Assembly (NCBI RefSeq): GCF_000422085.1 | Contig: NC_021741.1 | Coordinates: 2,170,001-2,234,000, forward strand | Direction: 5' to 3' | From: Serratia liquefaciens ATCC 27592 | GTDB lineage: Bacteria; Pseudomonadota; Gammaproteobacteria; Enterobacterales; Enterobacteriaceae | DNA length: 64,000 bases | Part shown: one piece after another, positions 23,946-52,243 of the stretch | Position numbering within the stretch: the stretch's first letter is position 1 | How the letters are laid out: each line of letters begins with the position of its first letter | Notes under the pieces: model-generated | Told to the model about the DNA's origin: nothing | The model's input: only the letters and a program-made list of their open reading frames with translations | Database searches by the model: none | Translations under genes and position numbers: made by a program

Positions 23946-24200
23946 TTAGAAGAGGGTGAAGTCGTCGTCAAACTTTTCTGCGTTTCGCTCGACTGACCTT
24001 GAGGCTAGGATGAATTGGATGCCTTCAAATAGCGACGTTGGTCGCTCAAGCCCGAATATGAACGCATCGTTGTATGTGCGCCCGAGCCAGTAGCCGCCGT
24101 ACTCCTTCAGGCGTTGGAAGAACACTCAGCCACCCTCTACGAAGTGAGGGAGGGTTTCGCCGCGATAGACGACTTGATAGCCGAGTTCTTTTGAAGCCAT
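23946..24200 (-). pseudogene. Small prophage ORF interrupted by an in-frame TGA
   Basis: An 84-codon reading frame from ATG 24200 is broken once, by TGA at codon 25 (24126-24128), then stays open to TAA. Conceptual parts: MASKELGYQVVYRGETLPHF then FFQRLKEYGGYWLGRTYNDA and later VERNAEKFDDDFTLF. The sequence on both sides looks like real protein (aromatic-rich, balanced). No family recognised. Readthrough is possible but a simple nonsense mutation in a decaying prophage is more likely. Confidence 0.45.
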
Positions 24201-24252
24201 AACTCACACCACAAAATACTGTTTATTTGCTCAGTATAATTGAGAGAGCGGG

Positions 24253-24618
24253 TTAGTCAATCAAGCAGCTCTCCACCACATCCTTTCGGTTATCTGCAAT
24301 GGTGTAGCCCATACCGAAAGTTTTATAGAACTTAACTGCCGATCCCGTTCCATTTGGGGTGATATCGGCGAACATAGTGTCTTTCCATGTAAAGACCGTG
24401 ATTTTATTACTCGACTGCTCAACATGTGTCGTGTTGTCTCGCTCAAGCATGACACGGGTATTGGTCCATCGTTCATAGATGCATTCACTGAGAACTTCAG
24501 GGGATTTGGTGCTTTCTCTGCTCAGAAGTGGTGCTTCGTTTCTTGCCTCATTAGGCGTTGATAGGCATCCAGACAGAAGTGCTGATGATGCCAAAATAAG
24601 TATTATTCCTTTTCTCAC
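24253..24618 (-). CDS. Prophage-borne small lipoprotein
   Basis: 121 residues with a lipoprotein signal VRKGIILILASSALLSGC; acylated Cys predicted at residue 18. The GTG start follows AAGGAAAAATC. The mature region is polar, with two further cysteines (ECIYERW and VESCLID) that may form a disulfide. It lies 298 bp downstream of the immunity gene on the same strand but past a terminator. It is too long to be a colicin lysis protein (about 45-50 residues). Function unknown. Confidence 0.65.
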   Translation of the reverse strand: MRKGIILILASSALLSGCLSTPNEARNEAPLLSRESTKSPEVLSECIYERWTNTRVMLERDNTTHVEQSSNKITVFTWKDTMFADITPNGTGSAVKFYKTFGMGYTIADNRKDVVESCLID

Positions 24619-24863
24619 GATTTTTCCTTTCGCTTGTTCTACATTTTATAATGTGAGTATAGCTTCAATCTGCTGTGTTTTCAGCGACCTGGTTCTCCGG
24701 TTTTGCCTGCATAGCGAGGTGGCATGCATTTCAGCCTTAATACCATTGAAAGCTCAGTACTTAACTGATGTCCTGCAATCCCTGCAGCCGTCTCCACTGG
24801 CCCTGGCATTAAAGTCTAGAAATACGCTGAAAGTGTCTCATTACGTCTTCTCGACGGAGTAGG

Positions 24864-24893
24864 CTAAAAAGAAGCCCGGCGTTTAACCGGGCT
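24864..24893 (-). terminator. Terminator of the bacteriocin-immunity operon
   Basis: AGCCCGG pairs with CCGGGCT (24873-24893); on the minus strand it is followed by TTCTTTTT. Lies 22 bp past the immunity stop. Confidence 0.8.
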
Positions 24894-24915
24894 GAAAGAG
24901 TGATAAATTATGGGG

Positions 24916-25170
24916 TCATGCTTTCCTGAAACCTGGCTTGCCGTTTTTAGATCGCCATTCTTTGATGACTTTAACTACAGCTTCAGCGCCTTGATTGCCT
25001 TTTTCAGGGTAATACAACAAATCCGATCCTGACGGATGCTCAGACAACCTCTCAAACTCCATAACAGCATCAATATGCGCTTCTTCGGATGGATAGGTGT
25101 CGTTATAAATACCCTTTACGAATTCGAGGAATTCTTTTTCCGTATAATCAGATATCGTCTTATTAGCCAT
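24916..25170 (-). CDS. Colicin E/pyocin S-type DNase immunity protein
   Basis: 84-residue acidic protein that binds the nuclease domain of the preceding bacteriocin and protects the producer. Its SDYTEKEFLEFVKGIYND and SEHPSGSDLLYYPEKG correspond to helix I and the conserved helix III (HPSGSDxxYYP) of Im2/Im7/Im8/Im9. The ATG at 25170 is chosen because GGGAGGGAAG precedes it and it starts one base after the bacteriocin stop. An in-frame upstream Met at 25206 would overlap the nuclease. Helix II residues (EEAHIDAVMEFERL) set specificity and should match the partner nuclease. Confidence 0.93.
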   Translation of the reverse strand: MANKTISDYTEKEFLEFVKGIYNDTYPSEEAHIDAVMEFERLSEHPSGSDLLYYPEKGNQGAEAVVKVIKEWRSKNGKPGFRKA

Positions 25171-25171
25171 G

Positions 25172-27373
25172 TTACTTCCCTCCCTTTCTTGAATGAATTT
25201 CAACATGTCGTTTCGGGGTTACGACACCAAGATTATCAACATCAAAGACACGCCCGCCATCTTTTATCATGTCTAAATGATGTAATTCAGCTTTAACCCT
25301 TTTCCCTGCTCGTTCGGCCTTTCGAACATACGGGGCTCTCCCCTTTTTCATGGTGGCTAAACTACCTGGATCAAATTGCTTGCTTAATTCAGGGTCTTTA
25401 CTAACTTCCCGCCAGAATGCATTACGAAAAGCATCAAAGTTCGCGAATTCTCGACCACGCAGCTTGTCAGCAATCTGACTGGGGACTGGGGCACCGAGTT
25501 CCTGGCCCGCTTTTTTTAGCCAGCCTTCACCTACTTTCTGTCCCTTGCCGCTCACTTTCCCTGGCATATCTCGTGGGCTTCTGAACACCACATAAATCGG
25601 CTCGACGCCGGTACCTTTGGCGTCAGGCTGCCAGTAGATAAAATCTTGTAGCCCATTGTTATCTGCGGCGCGTGAAGTAGTCACCACAATATTTTCCACC
25701 GGTTTTACATCGGTGCCAGTATGCAACGGTATTGCCGGTACAGACGGGGTCTGATTACCTGTATTCGAAGGTGCAGGCGGTGTTGCCGCTGGATTGATCA
25801 AAACCGTACGCGAAGGGGCACTAGTTGTCGCTGGCACCATGATGCGATCCAAGCCGGTTTTTTTATCACGTACAGCTGTCAACACCTGAACGGCTTTCGA
25901 CAAACCATCACCGGTTTTCAGCAGTTTCAGTGCCAATTGGCCGTTTGACATGACCAGTTGACCCCGGACGGGCAAATCGACCGTGGATGTCCCCGGTTTC
26001 AATCCCTGTTCTTTGGGCAACATGACGTTGGCAGGATAGCTAAACAGTGCAGGAACATCACGCCCCGGGACTTTGTCACTGCCTATCCCTACTTTGGGTG
26101 AATGGAAAATGGCTGCAATGACAAAGCCGCCTGCCAGTGGACTGGCCGCCCCGGTTGTCAGTGCTGAAATGCCTCTGCCAATGGAGGGACTGAGCACTTT
26201 CCCTCCCACATTCATCACACCTCTTCCCGCAATGGCCAACTGGGCTGTGCCAGGCCAACGCCCCAATGCCAGCACGCCGGCGCCACCCAGGGTTGCATTT
26301 GCCGCCTTCACCATATCCGGAGTGTACTCCGGTGCAGGTTTAACTCCGGCCTTTGCCAGCTCAGCAGCTACCTTCGCCAGTTCTGCCGCTATCTTCGCTT
26401 TGGTTTCCGCGGCCGCTTTCGCCTCTGCGTCTGCACGTGCTTTGGCCTCCGCTTCCGCTCTGGCTTTCGCCTCAGCTTTTGCCCGAGCGGCGGCTTCGGC
26501 TGCGGCTTTCACTTTGGCCTCTGCTTCAGCTTTGGCGCGTGCATCGGCTTCAGCCTGTGCACGTGCATCGGCTTCGGCTTTACGCGCGGCCTCTAGGGTG
26601 ACATCTGCCAGCCCTTTATCGACGTTAGCCTGATGCAGCGTTTGTTGAGCGGCGTTTAGTTCTGCTGTTGCTGCATCGACCTGTTGTTGAAGATTATTTA
26701 ATTTGGCTTCTTCTTCGTCCAACTGACCCAGATAAGTGGGGTCAAGGTTAAACATGTCGGTGAGCATCGAAACCAGCGTTTTTTTCTCGTCACGAGCGGG
26801 AATAGTTGAGGCCAGATGTTCATTTTTTTGACGTATCTGTTCCGCAGCCTGATTAATGCGCTCTTGGGCTTCCCGCACTTTATTTTCCGCCGCCGACACA
26901 CCAATTTTCGCGCCTTCGGAAATTGCATTGGCTTTGGCTTCTGCCTCCGCCCGAGCTCTGAATTCTGCTTCAGCTTGTGCGCGGGCCTTTTCCTCTGAGT
27001 TTTTCCTCGCGGCTTCCTGTGCTTTTTGCTTTGCTTCTTCGGCTTCTTTTTGTTGTTTTATCTTCTCCTGTTGTTCATACCACTCTTTTTGAAGGGCATC
27101 GAGCACGTCCCAGGAATCACCGCCAAGAATACCTGCCCATGGCGTCTTTGTTGGATTATCAGAGAAGCCCAGGCCTGGGAATGCCAGGTGATTTCCGTTA
27201 CCTGTCGTACCTTGATCATTAGGGCTTATCGTTAACGTATCTCCGTCCCATTGCCCTGTTGTTGGCCATCCCCATGACCCCGGGACACCGCCACCACCGG
27301 GTTCCCATACTAGCCCAGCTTGGGGCGGCACGCCGTTGTTATAGTTGCCGGGGTCGTAGTTGATATCACCCAT
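25172..27373 (-). CDS. S-type/colicin-like DNase bacteriocin
   Basis: 733-residue modular toxin. Residues 1-80 are Gly/Pro/Asn-rich with many Trp (translocation-type region). About 85-175 and 195-335 are Ala/Glu/Lys-rich coiled coils with long AEA-type repeats, like the receptor-binding rods of colicins. About 385-600 resembles the S-type pyocin domain. Residues about 600-733 are an HNH DNase of the colicin E2/E9 type: GKVSGKGQKVGEGWL start, SKDPELSKQF, then H698-H699, H723 and H727 of the beta-beta-alpha metal motif. It kills related cells by cutting genomic DNA. Next gene is its immunity protein. Upstream: LexA box, Fur box, AAGGAG ribosome site. No lysis gene adjoins it. Confidence 0.93.
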   Translation of the reverse strand: MGDINYDPGNYNNGVPPQAGLVWEPGGGGVPGSWGWPTTGQWDGDTLTISPNDQGTTGNGNHLAFPGLGFSDNPTKTPWAGILGGDSWDVLDALQKEWYEQQEKIKQQKEAEEAKQKAQEAARKNSEEKARAQAEAEFRARAEAEAKANAISEGAKIGVSAAENKVREAQERINQAAEQIRQKNEHLASTIPARDEKKTLVSMLTDMFNLDPTYLGQLDEEEAKLNNLQQQVDAATAELNAAQQTLHQANVDKGLADVTLEAARKAEADARAQAEADARAKAEAEAKVKAAAEAAARAKAEAKARAEAEAKARADAEAKAAAETKAKIAAELAKVAAELAKAGVKPAPEYTPDMVKAANATLGGAGVLALGRWPGTAQLAIAGRGVMNVGGKVLSPSIGRGISALTTGAASPLAGGFVIAAIFHSPKVGIGSDKVPGRDVPALFSYPANVMLPKEQGLKPGTSTVDLPVRGQLVMSNGQLALKLLKTGDGLSKAVQVLTAVRDKKTGLDRIMVPATTSAPSRTVLINPAATPPAPSNTGNQTPSVPAIPLHTGTDVKPVENIVVTTSRAADNNGLQDFIYWQPDAKGTGVEPIYVVFRSPRDMPGKVSGKGQKVGEGWLKKAGQELGAPVPSQIADKLRGREFANFDAFRNAFWREVSKDPELSKQFDPGSLATMKKGRAPYVRKAERAGKRVKAELHHLDMIKDGGRVFDVDNLGVVTPKRHVEIHSRKGGK

Positions 27374-27409
27374 AAGAACTCCTTTTTCTTAAACACAAAG
27401 TTGAATTAA

Positions 27410-27425
27410 CTGTATGCCCATACAG
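27410..27425 (-). promoter_or_regulatory. LexA box of the bacteriocin promoter
   Basis: CTGTATGCCCATACAG is a perfect palindrome fitting CTGT-N8-ACAG, 37 bp upstream of the bacteriocin start. On the minus strand TTGACG (27462-27457) and TACAGT 17 bases further could be the -35 and -10, placing LexA over the transcription start. DNA-damage induction, as for colicins, is expected. Confidence 0.85.
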
Positions 27426-27462
27426 TGATTTGAACTGTATATAAAAAGTTCCCACACGTCAA

Positions 27463-27484
27463 TGTAATGATAATCATTATCATT
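27463..27484 (-). promoter_or_regulatory. Near-perfect Fur box upstream of the bacteriocin
   Basis: The 19 bases from 27463 match 17 of 19 positions of the Fur consensus, and AATGATAATCATTATCATT (27466-27484) is a perfect palindrome. It ends next to the likely -35 hexamer (27457-27462). Repression by iron-loaded Fur in addition to LexA is inferred. The bacteriocin gene is the first gene downstream on the minus strand. Confidence 0.8.
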
Positions 27485-27611
27485 TGTGCCATAAATGATA
27501 CAACGCATGCTTGGAATAATGAGATGACAATGTGGGGTATTTTCTTAGGGGCTTTCAGATTAAAGTTATTGATCGAGCGTTAAAGACCTCGGAGCACTGT
27601 TGTTCTAACAC

Positions 27612-28499
27612 TTAGCGATGCCGGGCCTGTCCCATATAACGAATCATTTCCGCCCCAATCCAAGCGCCCACCGGAATGCTCACCCCATTGCCAATCTGCT
27701 TGTAAGCTGCGGTATCTGACACGGGAAAAATGAACCAGTCAGGTACACCCTGCAGGCGAGCATATTCACGCACTGAATACGGGCGAACTCCGTCAGGGAA
27801 GCGTTTATCGACAACAAGTCGAGTGCTCTTATCCTTCGCGTAATGGGCCACACAGGTTGGGGCGATATCTCCGCGTGCTGGGTCACTGATAATCGGTAAA
27901 TCCCTGTAAGAGCCACTGAGTCTCGCGTTGATGGCCTTAGGTAAAGTTACCTGTGGGTCTTCTTCCAATACCGCACTCAAGGGCAGCGGTTTGAATTTCT
28001 CGGGAGGCCTGATGGAAAACGCACGCCGGGTACCGATGATGATTAGGCGGTTACGGTGTTGTGGAAGCCATGTTTCGGATTGGATAGGGCAAAACACCTG
28101 AATGAAGTAATCAGGCATGCGGGTCATTGCTTCCATCACGACAGGGAAGGCTCGCATACCTGGGACGTTTTCGATCACATAAAACTCTGGTCGTGCAAGT
28201 GCGAAGTGACGCAAAGCATGCAGGAACAAGTCATCACCGGTATGCACTCCATGGATATCGCCGATAGTGCTGTATTTCGTACATGGGTAGGTGAACACCA
28301 TCCCATCACTGGCACCCTGTTCAAATACCAGTTCTTGGCTGATATCGCATTGCTTTACGTGATCGCCGATGTTGTGCCGGTAAGTCTTGCAAGCGTCAGA
28401 ATCAAGTTCGAAAGCTTGGTTAACCGTGATGCCTGCGCTCAGTAGGCCGACATCCATCATGCCAGCGCCGCAGAAAAATGAATTAACGGTTACGGTCAT
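27612..28499 (-). CDS. Phage DNA (cytosine-5) methyltransferase
   Basis: 295-residue C5 methyltransferase. Motif I FFCGAGMMDVG (residues 8-18), catalytic motif IV TYPCTKYS (C73; most relatives have PPCxxFS), motif VI ENVPG (110-114), motif VIII QHRNRLIIIG and motif X KQIGNGVSIP are all present in order. The target-recognition region is short. It overlaps the ParB-like gene by 4 bp. No restriction endonuclease adjoins it, so it is likely an orphan phage enzyme that protects phage DNA or alters gene expression. Confidence 0.88.
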   Translation of the reverse strand: MTVTVNSFFCGAGMMDVGLLSAGITVNQAFELDSDACKTYRHNIGDHVKQCDISQELVFEQGASDGMVFTYPCTKYSTIGDIHGVHTGDDLFLHALRHFALARPEFYVIENVPGMRAFPVVMEAMTRMPDYFIQVFCPIQSETWLPQHRNRLIIIGTRRAFSIRPPEKFKPLPLSAVLEEDPQVTLPKAINARLSGSYRDLPIISDPARGDIAPTCVAHYAKDKSTRLVVDKRFPDGVRPYSVREYARLQGVPDWFIFPVSDTAAYKQIGNGVSIPVGAWIGAEMIRYMGQARHR

Positions 28500-29341
28500 T
28501 TGGCCTCCTGTTGTTCAGCATCGAATGTCTGCGGGTGCTGTTGTCTGTACTCGTTGAGGATTTTGTTTATTTCCTCTCTGGTTCCTGGCGTCAGCAGCAG
28601 AACATCGCCCTCTTCACAGAGCATAGGGGCAGCGTCATAAAGCAGTTCGCATAATCTGCGTGCGCGGGTGGCGCTGAATAGGGGGGTGATAAAGGACTTG
28701 GTGACCTTCTTCTTGCCTGCCTTCTTGGCCTTTTCGACGTCACCGGCAAGCACTTTTCCTGCCGCTTCGCCGTGCTCTTTTACGCGGTCTACAGCGGCGT
28801 CAACGGCAACAGCACCCTCTCTAACGAGCGTCTGAACGTCGTGGTTTGCCTGGCTGAATGCCAGCAGCTTATCGACCGTTGCGCGGCTCTTACCGACCAA
28901 CGCGGCGATTTCATCAGGGGAAAGATTGAACCCGGCCAGCTCTTTTACAACGAGCGACTGCTCGTAAGGGGATAGGGGGAGCTGGGTGTTACTGTTCATG
29001 ATGCGAGCGATACGCTCTACATCATTTCCAGTAAACGGAATTATCTGTATGCGCTCTACAGGTTTACCTGCGTCACGACAGCGGCTATAAGCACGGCGAC
29101 GGCGGTGGCCTTCAACAACCCAAACACCGCCTTCATCACGAACTCTTACCTCGATCGGTGGCACCGGCTTGCCTTTCATCAGGTGCTGAAAGAGCTTTTC
29201 ATCCTCTGCCTGAGTGTGTTCATTCTCCACGCGCTTGTTAAAGCCTTCCTGAACGTGGATATCGTCCAGGTTCATAGTCATGCGCCCATCAGGACGTTTT
29301 ATCGTGCCGTCCTTTGCCATCTGCTTAAATGAGTTAGCCAT
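28496..29341 (-). CDS. ParB/Srx-fold N-terminal domain phage protein
   Basis: 281 residues. The ParB N-terminal fold is seen in DIHVQEGFNKRVENEH, VPPIEVRV and the phosphate-binding VVEGHRRRRAYSRC (about 73-87). A KorB/ParB-type helix-turn-helix follows: LSPYEQSLVVKELAG then LSPDEIAALVGKSRATVDKLL (about 120-160). The C-terminal part is Ala/Lys-rich, then a globular end. Often paired with DNA methyltransferases in phages. Role not established; DNA binding is likely. Confidence 0.82.
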   Translation of the reverse strand: MANSFKQMAKDGTIKRPDGRMTMNLDDIHVQEGFNKRVENEHTQAEDEKLFQHLMKGKPVPPIEVRVRDEGGVWVVEGHRRRRAYSRCRDAGKPVERIQIIPFTGNDVERIARIMNSNTQLPLSPYEQSLVVKELAGFNLSPDEIAALVGKSRATVDKLLAFSQANHDVQTLVREGAVAVDAAVDRVKEHGEAAGKVLAGDVEKAKKAGKKKVTKSFITPLFSATRARRLCELLYDAAPMLCEEGDVLLLTPGTREEINKILNEYRQQHPQTFDAEQQEAK

Positions 29342-29344
29342 CTG

Positions 29345-29581
29345 TTATTCAACCTCTCCGTGGATTGTGCTTTCGCTGTGGTGCTGTAGGCGACTGCTTG
29401 AAGGGTGGGTAATGGCATACGTCAGGACATATGCCGAACCGTCTTTAAAACCCGTCCAACGTGCGCATGCGCTGACTATCTGGCCCTGAACATCCTTACC
29501 CCGGTGATCTGAGTAATTCACGATGGTCCCAATGTGGTAACGCGGTTCGCACAGGCTCGGCGGGAGAGGTTTCTTTTCCAT
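29345..29581 (-). CDS. Small phage protein (beta-strand-rich, KOW/SH3-like length)
   Basis: 78 residues from ATG 29581, which has GGAGTTAATC before it. IGTIVNYSDHRGKDVQGQIVSACARWTGFKDGSAYVLTYAIT looks like a small beta barrel with alternating hydrophobic residues. No family recognised. Part of a leftward early operon of very short genes; its ribosome site lies in the last codons of the preceding gene. Confidence 0.55.
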   Translation of the reverse strand: MEKKPLPPSLCEPRYHIGTIVNYSDHRGKDVQGQIVSACARWTGFKDGSAYVLTYAITHPSSSRLQHHSESTIHGEVE

Positions 29582-29583
29582 GA

Positions 29584-29727
29584 TTAACTCCAAACAGCGC
29601 CAGCAGTGAGCAGGCACAAGGTAAAAATAAGCAGATAGAAGAGGTGTTTGCCGTGGTGGCGTTTAGGGGCAAAATCGCCCCCGGTAAGGTCGTACTTATG
29701 CTGGATGCGAGCGTTGAGCGTTACCAT
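29584..29727 (-). CDS. Small single-span membrane protein
   Basis: 47-residue ORF. A basic N-terminal half (DFAPKRHHGKH) is followed by a strong transmembrane stretch HLFYLLIFTLCLLTAGAVW. Its start overlaps the stop of the upstream gene by 7 bp and its end holds the ribosome site of the next gene, so coupled translation supports it. No family recognised. Confidence 0.5.
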   Translation of the reverse strand: MVTLNARIQHKYDLTGGDFAPKRHHGKHLFYLLIFTLCLLTAGAVWS

Positions 29728-29933
29728 GCTGGCCTCCGCTGCATTGTGTGCAGGCGGCGCTGCAGGGTTTTAATGCTGTTGCGTGTGACGTAGAAGCTGG
29801 AGCAGGTGTCGGCGCAGACGAGGATTCTCACGGTCTTATATCTGCCGTCTTCGTAGCGCTGAATGCTTACGCCCTTTTTCTCTACGCCGCGCGTCTTACC
29901 GCAGTGCTCACAGTATTTTGTGGTGGTTTGCAT
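29721..29933 (-). CDS. Small zinc-ribbon-like phage protein
   Basis: 70 residues. YCEHCGKTRG near the N terminus and LVCADTCSSFYV in the middle give paired Cys-x2-Cys and Cys-x3-Cys, suggesting one bound zinc. The C-terminal third is basic (NSIKTLQRRLHTMQRRPAW). The start MQTTTKYCEHC at 29933 follows GAGAGGACATGTT. Possibly a nucleic-acid-binding early protein. Confidence 0.55.
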   Translation of the reverse strand: MQTTTKYCEHCGKTRGVEKKGVSIQRYEDGRYKTVRILVCADTCSSFYVTRNSIKTLQRRLHTMQRRPAW

Positions 29934-30211
29934 AACATGTCCTCTCAATGAAAATTACATGGATAAAGGCACTGCCTGAGTTGATGCGCGCGCTCGGTTT
30001 CCCTACGGTTCCAGCACACTGGAGCGGGGCAGAGCCTTTATTGATGTAAAAAAGAGCCCCGACTAGCGGGGCAAAGGATGACAAGGGAGGTGTTACGGAA
30101 CAGGCTTGTGATGACTCACGCACCTGGTGGCGCATCGAACCGGGGATTTATACTGTGTAGGTTAAAATTAGAACCGGAATGATGCGCCACCAGATAAGTG
30201 AGACGCCGGTA

Positions 30212-30310
30212 TTACCCGGCGATGTATACGCAGCCAGAAATAGTTGCCACCCAAAGGGTTAAGCCGATGAGCACGCTATAGGTCATTGCCTTCCATCCGT
30301 TTAAACTCAT
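30212..30310 (-). CDS. Very small hydrophobic protein (32 residues)
   Basis: MSLNGWKAMTYSVLIGLTLW followed by VATISGCVYIAG: one membrane span. GAGGCAATC precedes the ATG. It sits in the leftward early operon between two other short genes. The 278 bases from 29934 to 30211 hold no convincing minus-strand gene. Confidence 0.45.
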   Translation of the reverse strand: MSLNGWKAMTYSVLIGLTLWVATISGCVYIAG

Positions 30311-30346
30311 GATTGCCTCAGTGCGCCCCGTAGGGCGCGGTGGGTA

Positions 30347-30502
30347 TTAGCTGGCCAGCCACTCGTCATAAGTTTTCAACGGCTTGCCGGTCATGAATTC
30401 GTTGCCTTTGCCGTCATCAGCGCAGGCCAGGTAAATCTGATATTCGCTGTCGTTGTCGCCGCGAGCTTTGGTCTGCCAATTGGCGTTCTGTTCGAGTCGC
30501 AT
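30347..30502 (-). CDS. Small phage early protein
   Basis: 51 residues from ATG 30502, preceded by GAGGGTTACACG: MRLEQNANWQTKARGDNDSE then YQIYLACADDGKGNEFMTGK and KTYDEWLAS. Looks like a short folded domain, rich in acidic and aromatic residues. No family recognised; an in-frame longer start at 30607 would run over the preceding gene. Confidence 0.5.
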   Translation of the reverse strand: MRLEQNANWQTKARGDNDSEYQIYLACADDGKGNEFMTGKPLKTYDEWLAS

Positions 30503-30521
30503 CGTGTAACCCTCTGCTGTG

Positions 30522-30683
30522 TTAGTTGGCGCACTGGTGCTTTTTGCTGAAGATGCGCTGAGCCTGCATTGCTTTACCCGTGCTTGGAGTGCGGTAGAAA
30601 ACTTCACGGCATTTGCTGCAAAACAAAACCTTCATGTCGTGACCATCAATGCCCCAGCCAACATGTTCGTTTATTGCTTTCAT
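30522..30683 (-). CDS. Small Cys-containing phage early protein
   Basis: 53 residues with GAGGAGTAACGCG before the ATG. VLFCSKCREVFYRTPSTGKAM and a terminal HQCAN give CxxC plus a later HxC, a possible single-zinc fold. First gene of the leftward operon after the pL-like promoter. No N-type antiterminator was recognised here. Confidence 0.5.
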   Translation of the reverse strand: MKAINEHVGWGIDGHDMKVLFCSKCREVFYRTPSTGKAMQAQRIFSKKHQCAN

Positions 30684-30910
30684 CGCGTTACTCCTCAGTG
30701 GTCTTAATGAAGCGCCCCACAGGACGCTTTATAAGTTCACTTCACCCAGTGCTGTCCGCCGCATGCCAGCTGTGCCATACCCCCGTAAGGGCTGGGGACT
30801 TCCAGGTACTGAGTTATGCAGATCTCTCTGCTCAACGCTGGGTGACTAAACCTGATTGTTAAAGAGCGACCCGGTGGTTTGGGGTGACGTTGTTGCTGTC
30901 GATGGATTGA

Positions 30911-30939
30911 GTTTAATTAATAATAAACTTAATCGTCAA
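30911..30939 (-). promoter_or_regulatory. Leftward early promoter (pL-like)
   Basis: On the minus strand TTGACG (-35), 17 bases, TTAAAC (-10). The stretch TACTTGACG...TTTATTATT closely resembles the pR-like promoter TACTTGACG...TTTAGTATT near 33254-33285, suggesting shared operators for the CI repressor. Read leftward it would drive the small-gene operon and the ParB/methyltransferase pair. Confidence 0.55.
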
Positions 30940-31075
30940 GTAAACACTAAACATAAGGTCGATGTTTATCGTTAACTAATTGAGAGTTTAGAGAATTTAG
31001 TTTTGTAAATTACTTGATAGGACTGGATTGGTAGCTTATGGGGGTATTTTGAGAGGGGATTTAACGGTGGAGACT

Positions 31076-31153
31076 ATGGCGGACCCAGATTCAGATCTGG
31101 TTTATGACGAGGCATGCAGGATAATGGGACAGTCTTGTTTGCTGCTGGCATAG
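31076..31153 (+). CDS. Possible 25-residue leaderless-type small ORF
   Basis: MADPDSDLVYDEACRIMGQS then CLLLA, with GGTGGAGACT before the ATG. Only the ribosome site and a plausible composition support it. It lies between the pL-like promoter and the terminator of the rex-position genes; the rest of 30940-31255 shows no gene. Confidence 0.25.
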   Translation: MADPDSDLVYDEACRIMGQSCLLLA

Positions 31154-31255
31154 AATAGCGATGAGATAGGTCGTGTAGATGGCCTACCAGCTTAAGCGAA
31201 TTCACTGACAGAAATGAACGAAAAACCGAGGATTGAATATTTAGAGGAGGTCCAT

Positions 31256-31281
31256 AAAAACCCGGAGAAAAAACCGGGTTT
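31256..31281 (-). terminator. Terminator ending the CI/rex-position operon
   Basis: AAACCCGG pairs with CCGGGTTT around an A-rich loop; on the minus strand five T follow. It ends five bases after the last gene of the operon. Confidence 0.8.
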
Positions 31282-31285
31282 CATC

Positions 31286-31528
31286 TCAGGAGGACCAGAC
31301 TGTTTGTGGTGGTAAAGTTCCTGTCTCTTTCCAGTCTAAAATCACTCTTCTTGCCGCTCTGGCAAAGTGTGTTTTTCTTGAGTCATTAGGCATTGGTTTG
31401 GTCAAGGCTAACTCACCTGTTTTACAGTTGATTGAAAAGTATCCATTCCTTCCATTTTCATCTGAAAACAAGTATGTCACCTTACTCCCTTCACGGCTAA
31501 CGATCCTAGCAGTTACTAATATCGCCAT
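31286..31528 (-). CDS. Small protein, third gene of the rex-position module
   Basis: 80 residues from ATG 31528 (GAGGCATATA upstream): MAILVTARIVSREGSKVTYL, FSDENGRNGYFSINCKTGEL and KTHFARAARRVILDWKETG. The first half looks like a beta sheet, the second a helix. Overlaps the preceding gene by 23 bp, so it is translated in the same unit. No family recognised. It is expected to be expressed in the lysogen from the repressor promoter. Confidence 0.6.
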   Translation of the reverse strand: MAILVTARIVSREGSKVTYLFSDENGRNGYFSINCKTGELALTKPMPNDSRKTHFARAARRVILDWKETGTLPPQTVWSS

Positions 31529-32036
31529 TATATGCCTCTTCAGGGTTCCATGTGTATCCACATGCTATGGTAGTTCTATGTGCTTCTGTTTGTGATACAT
31601 CCTTCCGCATCACAATTATAGACTCAAGTTGTTCGTGGCGGAAGAGTTTTTCATCCTCATCGACGTGGTCGCCCTCTGTCATCCTACTCCAAGAATTTAC
31701 AATTTCAGGGTCTGCATCTAACCTTCTATATTCGTCGATGTCATTAATTACAATTCTATGTTTTTTATAGAAAATATGCTCTTTTACTCTCGATACTACA
31801 GATTCTGGTTTCTGAATATTTTCTGCAATTTTTGCAACATCACTTGTATCCTGCCTTATAGCTTCGTAAAGTTCAACGGCTTTATCCCAGTTTTCTAGTT
31901 TATTTGGGTCAAGAACTACGCGTAATATTGTTGATGCATTCTCAAGATCACTTGAAATGATTTCATCAAGGAAGTCAAGAGCATCCTGAGCAGCATCATT
32001 AAAATCAAAGTCGCTGAGGATAGCTTGATTATTCAT
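31506..32036 (-). CDS. Acidic protein, second gene of the rex-position module
   Basis: 176 residues, A+T-rich DNA. The N-terminal half is helical and acidic (DFDFNDAAQDALDFLDEII). The C-terminal half carries VVSRVKEHIFYKKHRIVI, PEIVNSWSRMTEGDHVDEDE and KLFRHEQLES, a His-Glu pattern that recurs at the ends of some polymorphic and phage-borne toxin proteins. That comparison is from memory and weak. It overlaps the upstream gene by 4 bp (ATGA). Candidate effector of an exclusion or defence module. Confidence 0.6.
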   Translation of the reverse strand: MNNQAILSDFDFNDAAQDALDFLDEIISSDLENASTILRVVLDPNKLENWDKAVELYEAIRQDTSDVAKIAENIQKPESVVSRVKEHIFYKKHRIVINDIDEYRRLDADPEIVNSWSRMTEGDHVDEDEKLFRHEQLESIIVMRKDVSQTEAHRTTIACGYTWNPEEAYNGDISNC

Positions 32037-32431
32037 TTTACAAACTCTTGGATGCCGGACTTAGCCAAGGCAAAACCAAGAAGATTTAAGTTATATTTAA
32101 CAAATACTTTAAAACCTTCAAAGCCCATGCCATATGGTTTTATTAGACTAAAATGAAAAGCAAAATCTTTTTTTTCAATAGAGAAGCAGCCAGAAATTGC
32201 ATTGCTATTCATTTCATTGATTTTTCTCAACAATTCAAGTTCATTTGCATCATCTTTGATTCTGAAGAGTACGCGGAAAATTAAATTATTGCTTGGTAAA
32301 AGCTGAACGATAAATGTTGTAGCCTCGGTAGAAACGACTAGTAATTTCCCTTCTTGTTTTACATTAAAATCTAGTTGCTGAAGCCAGCCGATGTAGCCTT
32401 CCAGCGTGGTTTCTTTGGTTATTCTTTCCAT
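32033..32431 (-). CDS. YbjN-like fold protein, first gene of the rex-position module
   Basis: 132 residues, A+T-rich. ITKETTLEGYIGWLQQLDFNV, then alternating strands LLVVSTEATTFIVQLL and NLIFRVLFRIK, and a helix ELELLRKINEMNSNAIS followed by FSIEKKDFAFHFSLI, resemble the YbjN/type III secretion chaperone-like fold (low-confidence fold guess). It follows the CI gene by 141 bp in the same direction and is coupled to the next gene. Confidence 0.55.
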   Translation of the reverse strand: MERITKETTLEGYIGWLQQLDFNVKQEGKLLVVSTEATTFIVQLLPSNNLIFRVLFRIKDDANELELLRKINEMNSNAISGCFSIEKKDFAFHFSLIKPYGMGFEGFKVFVKYNLNLLGFALAKSGIQEFVK

Positions 32432-33217: not shown

Positions 33218-33239
33218 ATTTCCATTCTGCGTAGTAGTT

Positions 33240-45475: not shown

Positions 45476-45476
45476 C

Positions 45477-45500
45477 AACCCGCTTCGGCGGGTTTTTTAT
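45477..45500 (+). terminator. Hairpin after tape measure gene
   Basis: AACCCGC-TTCG-GCGGGTT plus six T. Confidence 0.75.
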
Positions 45501-45515
45501 TACCGGGAGAAAACC

Positions 45516-45983
45516 GTGGCAATACCTTATCCCGACTGGCTATCCCTTCCTCAGAAGACCAACAAGAGCCGAACGATTGATGCCGGGTTTCGTACCGATC
45601 AACCTGCAGTAGGCGCGCCCATCTTCCAGCGGCTGACCGATGACCTTAAAACCACCTGGTCACTGAACTGGATTTTCACGCTGCAGGAAGACCGAGCATT
45701 TGAGCAGTGGTATCGCAGCCCGCGTTATCTCGATAACGGCAACCAGTGGTTCACCATGCTGTGTAATCTGGGGGGCTCAGGTCTGCAGATGCAGGAACTG
45801 CATTTTGTGGCCCCTCCGGTACAGACAAGCATCAACGGCAATACGACGACATGGACGGGGAACGTCATCACCCGGAAGGTTTACAACCCGGATGATGAAT
45901 TCTCAGACGTCATTGTTGAGCTGCCGCCGAACCAGTGGGGGATCATTGATGAGGTGGTTAACCGAGATTTACCGGAGTTTTAA
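45516..45983 (+). CDS. Minor tail protein (tail-tip assembly)
   Basis: 155 residues: IPYPDWLSLPQKTNKSRTID, LTDDLKTTWSLNWIFTLQED and FEQWYRSPRYLDNGNQWFTM. The order tape measure, this gene, DUF1833, NlpC-like, tip protein matches siphophage tail-tip clusters. Follows GGGAGAAAACC. Confidence 0.7.
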   Translation: MAIPYPDWLSLPQKTNKSRTIDAGFRTDQPAVGAPIFQRLTDDLKTTWSLNWIFTLQEDRAFEQWYRSPRYLDNGNQWFTMLCNLGGSGLQMQELHFVAPPVQTSINGNTTTWTGNVITRKVYNPDDEFSDVIVELPPNQWGIIDEVVNRDLPEF

Positions 45984-46454
45984 ATGCCAACTTTACGCGA
46001 ATTTCAGTCTCAGCGTCCCAACCGCATTCTCTACGATACCATGACGTTTTATCACTCGACATTCGGCTATATCCGCCTGGTTAATCGCCAGATTTACCCA
46101 AAGACGTTTGCGGGGCAGGTTTACACCCCATGCCGGATGGAGGTGTCAGAGAGCCAGCAGAGCAATACGCCGGTAATCAATTCATCGGCGAAATTTGGGC
46201 GTTTGGCGCAGGACTTTAAGCAGCAGTTGAAGTTGTGGCGCACGTATTCGCGGATAACGCCGATATCGGCCACGTACCAGCGCTTTGATGCCGCCGACAT
46301 GAATACACCGCTTAAGCCGTGGACGCTTTACGTGAAAGACGTGTCGATGGACGAGAGCGACGTTACATGCTCGCTGACTCTTCAGAACCCGCTGAACAAC
46401 AACATCGCCTTCCTCTACAACACAACCGACTTCCCAGGGCTTGCCAATGCATAA
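45984..46454 (+). CDS. DUF1833-type tail protein
   Basis: 156 residues matching the DUF1833 family pattern: GYIRLVNRQIYPKTFAGQVY, PCRMEVSESQQSNTPVINSS and late TCSLTLQNPLNNNI. Directly follows the previous stop. Structural protein of the tail tip. Confidence 0.78.
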   Translation: MPTLREFQSQRPNRILYDTMTFYHSTFGYIRLVNRQIYPKTFAGQVYTPCRMEVSESQQSNTPVINSSAKFGRLAQDFKQQLKLWRTYSRITPISATYQRFDAADMNTPLKPWTLYVKDVSMDESDVTCSLTLQNPLNNNIAFLYNTTDFPGLANA

Positions 46455-46878
46455 ATCTGACTTTGTGAACGCCATGGAGGGCAAACCGTGGCGCGATAGA
46501 GCGTGCTCGTTTGAGGCGGCGGATTGTTGGGTGCTCGTCGTTCTGTACTACCGGCATGTGCTCGGCATTGAGATACACCAAACGCCGGACTACGAAGCCG
46601 GTAGCGACTTCCTGACGTGCTTTGCGGGTGATGTCGTGTTCTGGCAGCAGGTAGAGAAGGCCGCCGACAGTAGCATATTTATCGCGTATTACGGCGCGGA
46701 GCCAAAGCATGTTGGTTTGGTGGTGAATGGCCAAGCATTCCATAGCCGTGGCGAGTCTGGACAGGTGCGTTTCGACAAGCTTCGGACGTTAGAAAAAGTG
46801 TTCACCAAAGTGGAGTTTTACGACTATGCCGTTGATCGAAGTTCAGCGCGTGCCGGGGATACCGAAAGAGCGACATAA
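46447..46878 (+). CDS. NlpC/P60-like tail assembly protein
   Basis: 143 residues. Cysteine in FEAADCWVLVVLYY and histidine in EPKHVGLVVNG are the catalytic-type pair of NlpC/P60 tail hydrolases (lambda K type), used to pass peptidoglycan. ATG 46447 overlaps the DUF1833 gene by 8 bp; it overlaps the tip gene by 53 bp. Confidence 0.72.
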   Translation: MHKSDFVNAMEGKPWRDRACSFEAADCWVLVVLYYRHVLGIEIHQTPDYEAGSDFLTCFAGDVVFWQQVEKAADSSIFIAYYGAEPKHVGLVVNGQAFHSRGESGQVRFDKLRTLEKVFTKVEFYDYAVDRSSARAGDTERAT

Positions 46879-49321
46879 CCTCGCAGCCGGCAGCATGTTT
46901 TACCCCTGGCTGAAAACGGCCAACCTGCATTGTGATGTTGAGATACTGAGGAACGGAGTAAAGCTTAAACCTGATGACGAGCTGAATTTCCCGCTGAACC
47001 ATGGCGACATCATCAGCGTGTTTGACCAGCCAAAGAGTGGCGCACTCGGCACAATCTTGAACCCGCTTGAACACTTCAACCCGATAAAGTTTACCCAGAA
47101 AATCCTTTCGTCACTCATCAAGCAGCCAAGCGCTAACGCAGCCACAAACAATTCCAAAACCTCACCGAATAATAGCCTGAAAGGGCAAACCAACATTGCC
47201 CGTAACAGTGAGGCAAAGCCTGATAACTACGGTCAGGTGAGGGCGTTTCCAGACCTGATCCAGGAGTCTCTATTCGAGTACACCAATAACATCAAAAAGG
47301 TGACCGAGTGGATGAACTTTGGCCTGGGCAAGTATGACGTGACGTCTGTTCGCTACTCAGAGTCGAATCTTGGTGCTCTAGCGGGTGCCTCATACCAGAT
47401 CTTCCAGCCAGGCCAAAACATACCGGTCATCAACGAAGGGTTCGCATTCGATGATATCGACGGTCAGGAATTGCCAGGGCCAAACGAGAGCGAAGACTTC
47501 CCTGCTGAAACGGCTACGACTACCACGGATATGGTTTCTGGTGAATTCGTTGCCGGTCAGGCTCAGGTGAAGATTAAGCAAAATAGTGACTTCGACTACT
47601 TCTATGATCTGCCGAAACCGCACTCAGTTTCATTCGTGGTTAGCGTCACCTACAACACGGTATCTGGCCCAGTAACGCGGGATATCACCGTGTTTGCTGA
47701 ACTAACCAATGCCACGACCACGGATGACGGTGCGCCTGTTGATCCTCAGTATTTCTATGAATTCACGTTTGCAAACCTCAGCGGGAACGACATCGGTCAA
47801 ATACCGGGTGATGCTGTAATCAATACCACTATATTCACGCTGAATGATAACGAGCCGCTGGTTATCGGGCCTTCGTTTTCACCCGTAGAAGGAACACAGC
47901 TCTGGATTCACCTGCAGGCTCAGCTTGGCCATGGGGATTACGCCAGAACAAACGTTACTTTCTACAAAGTTGATGACGACAACAACCAGATCCCCGGCAC
48001 GCTTGAGAGCTACAACGTTGGGTTAAATAACGACGATGAAAACACCGATACCAAATACGAAACTTTTAAGTTCACACCCGCTGCAGGTAATGGCCGGTAT
48101 GCTATTTCGTTCATTCGGTCGAATAACAGCAACGATCATTCGGTACTGAAGGTTGAGGCCGTCCACATTGTCAGGACGCGCAGTAATGTCGCGTACCCGA
48201 ATGACACACTCGTTACCGTCACTGTAACGGCCACCGAAAGGGCTACGAGCGCAAGGGAAAGGAAATATAACGCGCTCATTACCCGTCATGTCATCAGTTA
48301 CAACCTGAGCACTCAAACCGTCGATTACACCGAAAGGCCGTCACGCTCGTTTGCTGATGCCGTGCTTCATACGTGGATAAAAATGGGCGGGCAGGCCGAG
48401 TCCAGCATCGACATCTATGAGCTGTATTCGATAGCCGCGTCATTACCGGATCAGCGGCTGGGTTACTTCGACTACACGTTTGACGACGAAGATATCTCTC
48501 TCGGTGCCAGGGTGCAGACCATTTGCGATGCAGCCACAGTAACGGCGTTCTGGGATGACGGCGTGTTGTCGTTTACGCGTGACGAGCGTAAGCCAAACGC
48601 GGTGACCGTATTCAACCGCGCCAACACCAAGGCGGAGGATTACAGCCTCTCATACGACATGACCCTCCCTGGTGGATTTGACGGTGTGCAGGTCACTTAC
48701 AAGAACCCCACGACAAACAAACAGGCATTCATTCGCTATCGGATCACCGGCCCAACCATTGAAGAGGGAGAGCCAGTCAAGGCGAAGAAGTTCGACATGC
48801 TTTATGTCAGGAACTCATATCAGGCACGAGATAGGGCTTTGAAAGAGGTTAGGCGGTTGCTTTATTCCCGGCAAACGATGTCGATAAGGGCCTTGTCAGA
48901 TGGAGAGTGGGTAAACGTCGGTCAGATGGTGCAGGTGCCTGATATCTACGACGCCAATCAGCAGGACGGGTATATCGTTGCCAGGAATGGAAACGATTTT
49001 GACACAAGTGAACGCATTGAATGGCAAGGAGACATGTATGTCATCGTCACCGATGCTAATGGCACGCCAACCGCGAGAATCCAGGCATTTCCTCGTAGCG
49101 ACACGATATTTGGATTCTCCGCAACAGTACCAGCAATAACCCTCAATATTTTTGACGGCTACAACGTGCAATCACCCTCCCGATATGTCATCGCCACGCA
49201 AGTGGAGATGGATGCCACCAAGTGGACGATCACAGAAAAGAAACCTAATGGCGACGGGACTACCTCGTTAACCATGTCTGAATATAACGATGAAATGTAT
49301 AATTATGAGGTAACTGAATAA
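46826..49321 (+). CDS. Tail tip / host-specificity protein (J-like)
   Basis: 831 residues. A MoaD/ubiquitin-like N-terminal part (EILRNGVKLKPDDELNFPLN), a loop region (about 90-140) rich in Asn/Ser, then tip domains (about 280-560) with Thr-rich beta sheets, and a C-terminal part with SYDMTLPGGFDGVQVTYKNP and VNVGQMVQVPDIYDANQQDG typical of tip proteins. It would contact the host receptor. Coding density is intact. Confidence 0.8.
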   Translation: MPLIEVQRVPGIPKERHNLAAGSMFYPWLKTANLHCDVEILRNGVKLKPDDELNFPLNHGDIISVFDQPKSGALGTILNPLEHFNPIKFTQKILSSLIKQPSANAATNNSKTSPNNSLKGQTNIARNSEAKPDNYGQVRAFPDLIQESLFEYTNNIKKVTEWMNFGLGKYDVTSVRYSESNLGALAGASYQIFQPGQNIPVINEGFAFDDIDGQELPGPNESEDFPAETATTTTDMVSGEFVAGQAQVKIKQNSDFDYFYDLPKPHSVSFVVSVTYNTVSGPVTRDITVFAELTNATTTDDGAPVDPQYFYEFTFANLSGNDIGQIPGDAVINTTIFTLNDNEPLVIGPSFSPVEGTQLWIHLQAQLGHGDYARTNVTFYKVDDDNNQIPGTLESYNVGLNNDDENTDTKYETFKFTPAAGNGRYAISFIRSNNSNDHSVLKVEAVHIVRTRSNVAYPNDTLVTVTVTATERATSARERKYNALITRHVISYNLSTQTVDYTERPSRSFADAVLHTWIKMGGQAESSIDIYELYSIAASLPDQRLGYFDYTFDDEDISLGARVQTICDAATVTAFWDDGVLSFTRDERKPNAVTVFNRANTKAEDYSLSYDMTLPGGFDGVQVTYKNPTTNKQAFIRYRITGPTIEEGEPVKAKKFDMLYVRNSYQARDRALKEVRRLLYSRQTMSIRALSDGEWVNVGQMVQVPDIYDANQQDGYIVARNGNDFDTSERIEWQGDMYVIVTDANGTPTARIQAFPRSDTIFGFSATVPAITLNIFDGYNVQSPSRYVIATQVEMDATKWTITEKKPNGDGTTSLTMSEYNDEMYNYEVTE

Positions 49322-51255
49322 ATGGCTACCACACCAACAAATAAACAAATCCCTAGCGAAGATGTAAGGGGTTTAAAATTTAATGCCGGGAAAATTGACG
49401 AGGTAGTTAACTCAGGAAATCCAACATATAAAGACAGGTTCGGAATAGACCGCTATACAATTGAAGGCATAAGGAGGACACTAGCTCCTCTTGGGAAAAG
49501 TTATACTCTTACAGAGGCTAACGACGCCATTTCATCTGGTGAGATAATTAACGGTGCCTTTTTCTTCATTGTTTCTGACGACAGTTTTACTATCGCGGAC
49601 GAATATAAAAATGTTAATGGTGTCGCAACACCAACTGGGAAGGTATTTCGTGATTTAGTTCGCGTAGATGAAGGTAGCGCGATTTCTCATTTAGATGCTA
49701 ATGGGTATCCTGCAGCTTATATTCAAAACGGAAATATCTTCGCTGGAGATTTGGAGATTTGGAGATTTCATTAATATCAGGTGATGGAATTTACCTGATA
49801 GATAAAAATGGTTATGCGGTGGAACTGCAAGTTTCTTCAGCAGATACCGAAGAGGACTCCTGGCTTTCTGAACAGACAGAGAAAAGCGAAGTGTTAGCTC
49901 GCCAGAGCCGCGAGGCTATCGCTTCCCGTGGGAACAATGCGGTCCGTCCGTTAGCGCAAATTATTCACAATATCTATTACGGTCAGTCGCTGCAAAACGG
50001 CACCGAAGGGTGGCCGCGCCTGAGCACGACACAACCGCTGGATAATTTGATGTTTGGTGACTCATCAATGCCTGCATCACCAACAGCAGCCGTCTTCACT
50101 CCGCGTGGTAGTGCGACGCTAAAACCTTTGATCGCTACTTGCTGCGATGCCAACGGCAATGCATTAACTGATTCGCAGGTGTCCGCTCTGGCGCCAGGAA
50201 CGATCGCATATGGTGAGTCACCTGTAGAAGGAAGCCTGAATTCATGGCGTCGTCATCACCTCGACCGAGTAGGCCTATCCTCTGAACCCAACCGTGTGTT
50301 CGTTGGTTCTGCTACAGGGGTCGGTGGGCGAAACCTTGCGCAGCTAAGCAAAGGTGCCAGCCCAGATCTATATAACCGATTCTACACTGCAATGACCGGT
50401 GTTAAAGCTATCGCCGATGCCGCAGGCAAGTCATACCAGGTGGGCTGCATCGTTCACATGCATGGTCAGCAAGACTATCCGAACGCAAGTAAGGAGTATT
50501 TCAAAAGCGGGACACTACAGCTGCGCAACGACATGTATGCAGACATTACTGCCGTAACTGGCCAGTCTCGGATGCCTGCATTTATCATCGACCAGGCAGG
50601 AGCATCATTTACGCGTGACGAGCATGACATGGCTGTTGGCATGGCCCAGATCGAACTTGCAGAAGAGAATGAAAACATATTTCTGGCGGGCCCGACTTAT
50701 CCGTACACCGACAAAAACGGGCATCTGGATTCAAACGGTTACCGCTGGTTTGCAGAGAAACTGGGCGAAATCGCCTTTAAGATATGTGAGCTTGGCCAAG
50801 ACTGGAAGCCGTTACAGCCAATCACCGCTGTTTACCGTGGTGTTGACGTGCTGTTATCGATGCATACGCCAGCTCCACCTTTACGCTTCTCTCCGCCGTA
50901 TGTAGTGAACGCTGCTCAGGAATACGCTGACAAAGGGTTTACCGCCATTGATCGATTCAACGGTGCCGACACTCCGATCAGCGTACTGGACGTAGAGGTC
51001 CGTGGGCTTTCAACAATTCACATTACTTTAGTGCGTGAGCCGCTTGGCGAGCTGTTGATACGTTATGCCGACAAGGCTAATCACAATGGCAACGGCATGG
51101 TTTGTGATTCAAGCAATGGACTTAGCGAAAGTAAATATGAGTATTTGCCAGATAGTGGCATGTATCCGTCTGCAAACATACCGGAACTCGTTAATAACTA
51201 TTATGACCTTCGTAATTGGAGCGTCGCATATCAGATTACAGCAGAAGAGGCATAA
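49322..51255 (+). pseudogene. Tail spike gene split by an 8-bp tandem repeat: N-terminal adaptor plus SGNH-like esterase part
   Basis: Frame 1 (49322-49774, 150 residues) begins MATTPTNKQIPSEDVRGLKF and stops right after three copies of GGAGATTT. Frame 2 (open from 49759 to 51255) continues with SGDGIYLIDKNGYAVELQVS. With two (or five) copies the frames join into one protein of about 641 residues. The C-terminal part has SGNH/esterase-like blocks: YYGQSLQNGTEGWP, CIVHMHGQQDYPNAS and GHLDSNGYRWFAEKLG, as in phage enzymes that remove O-acetyl groups from surface sugars. Either a mutation or reversible phase variation. Confidence 0.7.
49745..49768 (+). repeat. Tandem octamer GGAGATTT x3 inside the tail spike gene
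   Basis: Three exact contiguous copies. Unit length 8 is not a multiple of three, so copy number changes shift the reading frame of the spike gene: two copies fuse the two frames, three copies stop translation. Confidence 0.9.
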
Positions 51256-51258
51256 ATA

Positions 51259-52042
51259 ATGGGCATTGCGTTATATGACAACAGCACAGACCTGAGCGGA
51301 AAAACAAGTTTCATTATGCCTCCTGTTCAGGAGGGATTGCTGGGATGGGGGCATCTCGGGCGGCAGTATTGAAAAGTCACTGAGAAACCTTGCACGTTAT
51401 CAACCAGCGTTTACTGTCGTTGGAAATCCAGAGGTTCACGGAAACTATTTACGATTTAAGGGTGGGCAAGACTTTTTAAGGACGTCAATATTCCAGCGAC
51501 GAAATCATACGCTGTTTTGTATTGCTCGCTCTAATGATACATTCGCAACTGATGAACATAAGCCAATGTTCATGGGTACGTTTAGTGGTCAGAACGTCGA
51601 AGCGCCGGGATTTGTTTCACATGGCTTATCGCTATTCGTAAACAATAATGACCCTGGAGCGCCAATGGGGAAACTTACTGCTCAAGCCGGTGTTTTCAAT
51701 CCGGCAGCGCCTTCTACATCAACACCGCTTTCGGTGAATGTGGTTAAGGATATGTCCAAATTTTCGATCATGTCGGTCACCTGCAGTAATACAACGATCA
51801 CGGTGAAGGATTGGATCACTGGCATCATGGCAACAAACCCTTTCCCAGCAGGTACCATTCCGGCGCTGTCAAACCGTGCATTTGCGGTGGGTGGTCCTGC
51901 GAATGAAACACAATCACTGAAGGGTTATAACGACGTGGCTGCTTTTGTTATTTACGAAGGGGTGTTGAGTGAGGTTCAGCAAAGCCTGACCACTGCTCGT
52001 CTTCACTCATACTGTAACAATATGGGCATTCCTCTTTCGTAA
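51259..52042 (+). pseudogene. Frameshifted phage surface protein with lectin-like domain
   Basis: The frame from ATG 51259 (MGIALYDNSTDLSGKTSFIM) stops at TGA 51370-51372 just after a GGGGG run (51346-51350). Removing one G gives LLGWGISGGSIEKSL and an open frame to 52042, about 260 residues. It has jelly-roll/concanavalin-like sequence (NYLRFKGGQDFLRTSIFQRR, NHTLFCIARSNDTF). Likely a tail fibre or chaperone partner of the spike. It has been inactivated, or the sequence has a homopolymer error. Confidence 0.6.
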
Positions 52043-52214
52043 GTTAATGTCGGAATGGACCAAGGCTATTTGATTTGGGATTTTGATGCCGCCATTGTGT
52101 CACTCCGGGGATGGTCATGGAGTAATGGTCGCTGGGATGTGTCTAGAAGTTCACCTGTTCATAGTGTTACACTCTCTTTTCCGTTATGGCGTAACAACAT
52201 AGTACATTTTAAAT

Positions 52215-52243
52215 TGTGTACATATGAGTGTACATATCTGGCA
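52215..52243. other. Possible right end of the prophage (attR-like)
   Basis: TGTGTAC ... ATCTGGCA, partner of the site at 23879-23907 with equal spacing but a different middle. Lies 130 bp before thrS. The 304 bases from 52043 to 52346 otherwise hold the thrS leader. Confidence 0.25.

Follow-up and report, generated by a model that had tools for sequence, protein, structure and literature searches.

The 64,000-nt window analyzed here (Serratia liquefaciens ATCC 27592, contig NC_021741.1, positions 2,170,001 to 2,234,000; host genome 5.28 Mb in two contigs) contains a prophage remnant that carries the gene of a nuclease bacteriocin together with a phage lysis cassette. All coordinates given below are those of the window. 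The remnant spans 23943..52296 (28,354 bp) between a conserved gene (23169-23786) and thrS, lying upstream of the latter. Its limits were obtained from empty sites in two close relatives, genomes G006 and G007, in which the match to the window ends at 23942 and begins again at 52297. The limits of 23946-52243 in the original prediction, which was made from the sequence by itself, agree with these to within 3 and 53 bp.

The bacteriocin gene (25172..27373, minus strand) encodes a protein of 733 aa. Its predicted domains are those of an S-type or E-type DNase bacteriocin, namely Pyocin_S (PF06958, residues 462-596) and Col-Pyo_DNase (PF21431, residues 605-728, covering all 124 profile positions, E = 3.6e-51). 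The immunity gene (24916..25206, minus strand; Colicin_Pyocin, PF01320, E = 1.6e-29) lies directly downstream and overlaps the 3′ end of the bacteriocin gene, and is followed by a terminator-like hairpin (24873..24893, minus strand). Both genes had been named from the sequence before, along with the claim that the toxin has no lysis gene of its own, and this description holds. Among the 19 open reading frames (ORFs) of at least 20 aa that overlap 24200-25180, we recognized by eye no lysis lipoprotein gene of the kind that accompanies group A colicins, nor was one seen after the immunity gene.

The order of elements upstream of the bacteriocin, read on the minus strand, is an exact Fur 7-1-7 box (TGATAATNATTATCA, 27468..27482), a sigma-70-like promoter (27434..27462) with a −35 of TTGACG, a 17-bp spacer and a −10 of TACAGT ending at 27434, an exact match to the LexA pattern CTGT-N8-ACAG (27410..27425), and the start codon. 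The Fur box was absent from the original prediction. When up to two mismatches were allowed, the 64-kb window contained three Fur sites, two of them overlapping, versus 0.13 expected. In order to place this promoter among its relatives, the upstream regions of 54 related loci were collected. One was too short; of the 53 that were scored, 15 with identical last 150 bp were set aside, leaving 38 distinct regions (L020 was left out), and 2120 mononucleotide shuffles of the 53 regions served as the control. A Fur site with no more than two mismatches was present in five of the 38 distinct regions (this one, L122, L005, L006 and L007) versus 3 of the 2120 shuffles. Four of the 38, this one included, carried both Fur and LexA sites when a single mismatch was allowed for the latter, L005 being the Fur carrier without LexA. 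The five promoters belong to related Serratia toxins and hence do not represent five independent events. Judged by these sequence matches, the toxin promoter has the paired LexA and Fur boxes of a control region of the colicin Ib (ColIb) type. In seven loci, six of them on viral contigs and the other being L123, a gene occupies a kcp-like position; LexA-like sites (at most one mismatch) are present close to its start, and Fur sites are absent even when three mismatches are allowed.

The extent of the cassette was defined by comparison with 16.5 kb of the 29.8-kb contig L160 (IMG/VR 2927693043_000004). Its left arm contains, in order, ParB, methylase, a 216-aa gene, a lipoprotein gene, the left-end gene, small genes and an integrase-type gene. 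The window matches it from 30200 to 27632 at 92.6% identity and again from 24689 to 24031 at 88.7%, and the 2.94-kb gap between these matches is the bacteriocin cassette (24690..27631, minus strand). On one side of the cassette lie a C5 cytosine DNA methylase gene (27612..28499, minus strand; family match and relatives) and a ParB-like gene (28496..29341, minus strand; phrog_1033), and on the other a phage lipoprotein gene (24253..24618, minus strand; phrog_914, 95% identical in L160) and the left-end gene. All four are syntenic in L160, which marks the bacteriocin as phage-associated. The lipoprotein was considered as a bacteriocin release protein and rejected, since L160 has it in a left arm that lacks a bacteriocin. 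It had also been proposed that the toxin occupies the place of int/xis in a lambdoid phage. This could not be upheld, and replacement of int was rejected as well: the L160 int lies outside the lipoprotein and left-end genes, beginning about 3.6 kb beyond the end of the methylase, and the cassette corresponds in position to the interval that separates methylase from lipoprotein.

The closest homologue of the module (75-77%) is located at a chromosomal locus of S. quinivorans; the match, interrupted by a gap, covers 27564-24866 and includes both promoter and terminator. In the 22 kb of this locus inspected by eye no phage genes were recognized. Since the whole module matches a non-phage locus and corresponds to a gap in L160, we regard the cassette as a mobile toxin unit and not as a product of prophage decay. 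Left-arm loci were fetched for the best 80 of 236 ParB matches and the best 80 of 119 methylase matches, with flanks of no more than 8-10 kb. This element excepted, none of them had a bacteriocin relative in the same place, and a tblastn search of the bacteriocin against 50,697 phage records gave no match.

Several related toxin loci were observed in the course of this survey. At G007:C1:3419986-3426111, parts of the bacteriocin are matched six times in a span of 6 kb, which may represent a store of toxin tips and cassettes. L332 (G007:C1, about 1729.9-1738.4 kb) is a Fur-box bacteriocin with the same N-terminal type, located in an island behind an integrase and adjoining a smpB-looking gene. 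By eye, ccmA-like genes (cytochrome c maturation) occur within a few kb of the cassettes of both L122 (S. quinivorans) and L123 (Pluralibacter), and this region may be a chromosomal hot spot.

The second component of the locus is the lysis circuit. The CI repressor (32573..33217, minus strand) has a Peptidase_S24 domain; its N-terminus matches solved phage CI domains, and what we take to be the nucleophile, the lysine and the Ala-Gly cleavage site can be discerned in its sequence. On the plus strand, the antiterminator Q (37387..38121) is followed by a late-promoter-like block and then an intrinsic-terminator-like hairpin (38171..38289, identified by eye), an inverted accessory gene, the holin (39000..39350), the GH24 endolysin (39334..39774; Phage_lysozyme) and the spanins Rz (39771..40154) and Rz1 (40045..40311). 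The CI, Q and lysis genes are all open, and family matches support each of these assignments, as originally proposed. The block resembles a lambdoid late promoter and terminator, and Q of L160 has a closely similar one behind it; the late-promoter word gave no additional match in the 19 other fetched loci in which it was sought. With a LexA-type promoter on the toxin and an open CI/Q/lysis circuit, SOS could switch on toxin and lysis together, a point on which the original prediction appears sound.

Two observations concern the region between Q and holin. The accessory gene (38285..38938, minus strand), which has no PHROG or Pfam match, lies in reverse orientation after the late terminator-like hairpin and before the holin, and its counterpart in G004 (75% identical) is near the lysis genes of that genome. 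In L167, a related phage contig, the lysis-control region has, at this place, a gene of ~116 aa with a LexA-like box (CTGTATATGGATACAG) upstream.

The remnant has lost the modules for mobility and particle formation. None of the 13 PF00589 matches in this genome falls inside the element, and scans of its ORFs, not extending to every small ORF, gave no family match for large terminase, portal, capsid or tail tube; the absence of all five had been correctly noted before. Thus int, an attL/attR pair, large terminase, portal and capsid, by which a functional temperate prophage would be known, are not found, and by its gene content the remnant is predicted neither to excise alone nor to make particles.

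In a survey of the att site in 30 genomes of the genus, the left flank was matched in 20 and thrS in all 30. The site is empty in 17 of the 20, mostly other species, with flank matches ending 219-281 bp apart, and occupied in three: this genome, G024 (about 42 kb) and G019 (about 4.1 kb). The G019 insertion (L112; G019:C2, about 5568.2-5572.3 kb) is at the thrS att site with an attR arm as in the window and is apparently a decayed element. A 17-bp attR core (52300..52316, plus strand), identical to the core on both sides of the 42-kb prophage of G024, is present once at the right end of the remnant and is missing from the left end. Since the integrase of the G024 prophage adjoins attL and the remnant has no attL copy, one deletion ending at 23943 probably removed both attL and int. 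In phage contigs L161, L165 and L168 the homology to the window continues up to 23943.

A second deletion can be placed between 42133 and 42358. To its left is a truncated gene for the terminase small subunit (41912..42133, plus strand), of which the N-terminal half remains (profile positions 1-64 of 141). To its right is a small gene (42358..42765, plus strand; 98.5% identical) that also neighbours the tape-measure gene in L318, L319 and L323, so that the head genes must have been lost between these two points. The matching stretch of G006:C42 contains a large terminase gene, a DUF6260 protein gene in the usual position of the capsid gene and, by eye, further head-/tail-type ORFs.

Decay appears to exceed the missing modules. 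The left-end phage gene (23946..24200, minus strand), unbroken at 85-89 aa in L160, L161 and L167, has an in-frame stop. In the tail-fibre region (49322..52042, plus strand) two genes are apparently split by frameshifts. The tail-fibre gene, a single frame of 717 aa in G006 and 627 aa in G024, is found here as 49322-49774 and 49759-51255, the second piece matching the fibre profile only from position 248. The gene around 51260-52042 shifts frame, and its open part covers only positions 104-251 of a 253-position profile.

The tail genes that do remain are the tape measure (42827..45475, plus strand; family match) and a group of minor tail genes with a large tail gene (45516..49321, plus strand). 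The first of this group (45516-45983) matches phrog_384, a virion structural protein in the PHROG category 'head and packaging'; we take it as a minor tail gene because its counterparts in G006 and G024 directly follow the tape-measure gene. Retention of tape measure, minor tail and large tail genes might point to a tailocin or satellite, with particles of its own or packaging through a helper. However, a tailocin would have a complete tail module including the tube, and neither tail tube nor large terminase gave a family match. Integrase and attL are missing as well, and genes of the tail-fibre region are apparently broken. We regard such an element as extremely improbable.

Taken together, the locus is probably best described as a decaying prophage with a Fur/LexA-controlled bacteriocin as cargo and with SOS-induced phage lysis, in cis or in trans, as an opportunistic route of release for the toxin. 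In the history that we propose, a temperate phage would have entered the chromosome of a Serratia lineage at the att site immediately upstream of thrS. Its variable left arm would have contained a self-contained bacteriocin cassette already at that time, or gained one later. Loss of attL and int in one deletion and of the head genes in another would have been followed by the accumulation of small lesions. The bacteriocin, with its immunity gene, own terminator and predicted LexA- and Fur-binding promoter, should be expressed under simultaneous SOS and iron limitation. The SOS response is further predicted to inactivate CI by cleavage, allowing Q to be synthesized and holin, endolysin and spanins to be turned on, and lysis of the cell, by the cassette of the remnant or of another prophage, would liberate the toxin-immunity complex.

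Several points weigh against this interpretation. The Fur and LexA sites are consensus matches and are predicted only in this sense. The LexA pattern alone is weak: it occurs twice in the window versus 0.84 expected, and among the shuffles 235 of 2120 contained it at up to one mismatch and 11 of 2120 exactly. The full 20-base LexA consensus has no match in the window at up to three mismatches. No intact phage of this lineage carrying the cassette was found among the viral contigs, phage records and fetched loci, and the cassette could have been acquired either by the phage before it integrated or by the resident prophage. A single sequence of the remnant was found, the only other copy, IMG/VR contig 2563366574_000002, being identical in DNA where fetched. 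Finally, two other prophages of the genome could do the lysis.

These two prophages, around 2,998-3,045 kb and 3,961-4,001 kb, contain the further GH24 genes of the genome (C1:3023140 and C1:3983755). One of them has an integrase, a large terminase and a portal, and the other a portal, a capsid, an S24 repressor and a partial integrase match. Release in trans by both is therefore possible on this analysis, and a narrower form of our interpretation would have the toxin freed in trans, mainly through them, with little contribution from the cassette of the remnant. Both carry typical prophage families in addition to GH24, and ColIb is known to be released in trans by prophages (PMC7374059; the papers cited by PMC number are drawn on here in excerpts). 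On the other hand, the lysis cassette of the remnant looks equally complete, and the other prophages are putatively inducible and complete, as judged from these families. We hold this narrower form to be a tentative alternative, with a somewhat less than even chance of being correct.

The original prediction had gone further and described the remnant as apparently domesticated, that is, with its CI/Q/lysis circuit retained by selection for bacteriocin release while particle genes were lost. Such selection would explain why the lysis cassette, CI and Q are open although the head genes are lost and three other genes are apparently broken, and why the ratio of nonsynonymous to synonymous substitution rates (dN/dS) is low for the endolysin (0.063 versus L167) and Q (0.081 versus L160). 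However, when three lesions are spread evenly over 85% coding sequence, 0.16 is expected in the lysis cassette and the probability of none is 0.85, while that of lysis and switch genes together escaping is 0.67; an intact lysis cassette is thus expected by chance. The dN/dS values are equally low for ParB, methylase and lipoprotein and probably reflect mostly selection in active phages before decay; the value for Rz is 0.443. The tape-measure and large tail genes, which are useless for release, are likewise open, and lysis genes are also supplied by the other two prophages.

Comparison with relatives also argues against domestication. G006:C42 and the prophage of G024, at the same att site, look intact, with integrases in both, a large terminase in G006 and head-type ORFs in both by eye; neither has a bacteriocin match in the 56 kb and 47 kb compared, respectively. 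There is likewise none in the fetched parts of L160 and L167. The original prediction had itself named such relatives, with an apparently intact phage and no toxin gene, as grounds for its refutation. It had been suggested that lysis and bacteriocin genes might be kept together in other Serratia genomes. Comparison by eye of the 20 genomes with a bacteriocin match gave a single case, this genome, of a GH24 match lying on the same contig no more than 30 kb away, in a count that used GH24 alone among endolysin families and included several fragmented assemblies; the remaining 19 have none. We consider domestication unlikely. What stands of the proposal is that the remnant could serve as a release device, since prophage lysis does free ColIb, which has no lysis gene (PMC7374059); its retention for that role is not supported.

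A related view is that the locus is a chromosomal, cis-linked version of the ColIb strategy, in which a DNase bacteriocin double-locked by Fur and LexA delegates its release to the CI/Q lysis cassette of a prophage that makes no particles. We find this doubtful, if slightly less so than domestication. If it were true, SOS under iron-poor conditions would make the producers pure toxin bombs. The interest of the locus is its bearing on the exit of bacteriocins that have no lysis gene, since a toxin and an apparently complete lysis circuit are on one non-mobile segment. The controls of toxin and lysis circuit are separable, so release in cis and in trans could be distinguished by gene removal. 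Should the boxes be functional, this dual-box promoter and those of three relatives would carry Fur/LexA logic over to nuclease-type bacteriocins of Serratia.

Further phage genes of the remnant are on the plus strand between CI and Q. These are a Cro-type regulator of the YdaS family (33309..33536), a CII-like regulator (33552..33875; phrog_725), a KilA-N domain protein (34165..34905) and a replication-type gene (HTH_36), a DUF968 gene and RusA (together 35074..37429), identified by family matches where no PHROG is given.

Several known systems resemble the locus in part. DLP12 of E. coli is a defective lambdoid prophage that has kept its lysis cassette, as has the remnant, and has no bacteriocin inside. 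ColIb, a pore former of Salmonella, is similar in having a LexA and Fur promoter, no lysis gene of its own and release through prophage lysis, control and release being predictions in the Serratia case. It differs in that ColIb is plasmid-borne, while the Serratia toxin is chromosomal, of the DNase type and physically linked to a lysis cassette. Release of ColIb falls markedly in strains cured of prophages and in mutants of the lysis genes (PMC7374059), and its promoter is controlled by Fur and LexA (PMC3879352).

The DNase domain and immunity family are shared with pyocin S2, colicins E2, E7 and E9 and klebicin G, the last of which aligns over most of the bacteriocin (E = 3.5e-59). Unlike the S-type pyocins and colicin DNases, the Serratia protein has a central part (328-608) that among solved structures is closest to colicin D, and an N-terminal NNGVPP motif common to relatives in G007, G011 and L144. 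Telocins, described in 2025 from Klebsiella telomere phages, are phage-borne, and their bacteriocin:immunity cassettes are swapped at one locus of related phages, some phages having none, which resembles the situation of the cassette here (PMC12042878). The five described in the excerpted source are pore-forming or peptidoglycan-degrading, and not DNases as here, and their hosts are telomere phages (PMC12042878).

Klebicins C and D have been known as phage-associated Klebsiella bacteriocins since 2005 (Chavan et al. 2005, via PMC5536347 and PMC10269471), and they too combine a colicin/pyocin-type bacteriocin with an immunity gene in the neighbourhood of phage genes. In PMC5536347 the association of nuclease bacteriocins with phage genes is given two readings, one of them being that phage lysis genes were recruited. 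Relatives of the Serratia toxin occur in 20 viral contigs, one being this element, and in L139, L141, L143-L145 and L153 the cassette appears by eye to lie between replication-type and lysis-type genes. These klebicin-like contigs differ in having an extra front gene, taken as kcp/kdp by position alone, LexA-like boxes without a Fur box, a cassette on the late-gene strand and, in L141, L143 and L153, terminase-/portal-type ORFs (by eye). Compared with klebicins C and D, the Serratia cassette is in the opposite arm, has no front gene, combines Fur with LexA and resides in a decayed prophage. Among titles and abstract starts of the literature searched, whose coverage leaves out most subscription journals, there was no published nuclease bacteriocin with Fur and LexA boxes, and the excerpted text of PMC3879352 gives ColIa and ColIb as the only reported colicins under such dual control. 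Phage-associated bacteriocins being already known, what appears to be new at this locus is the predicted combination of Fur and LexA boxes on the promoter of a nuclease bacteriocin.

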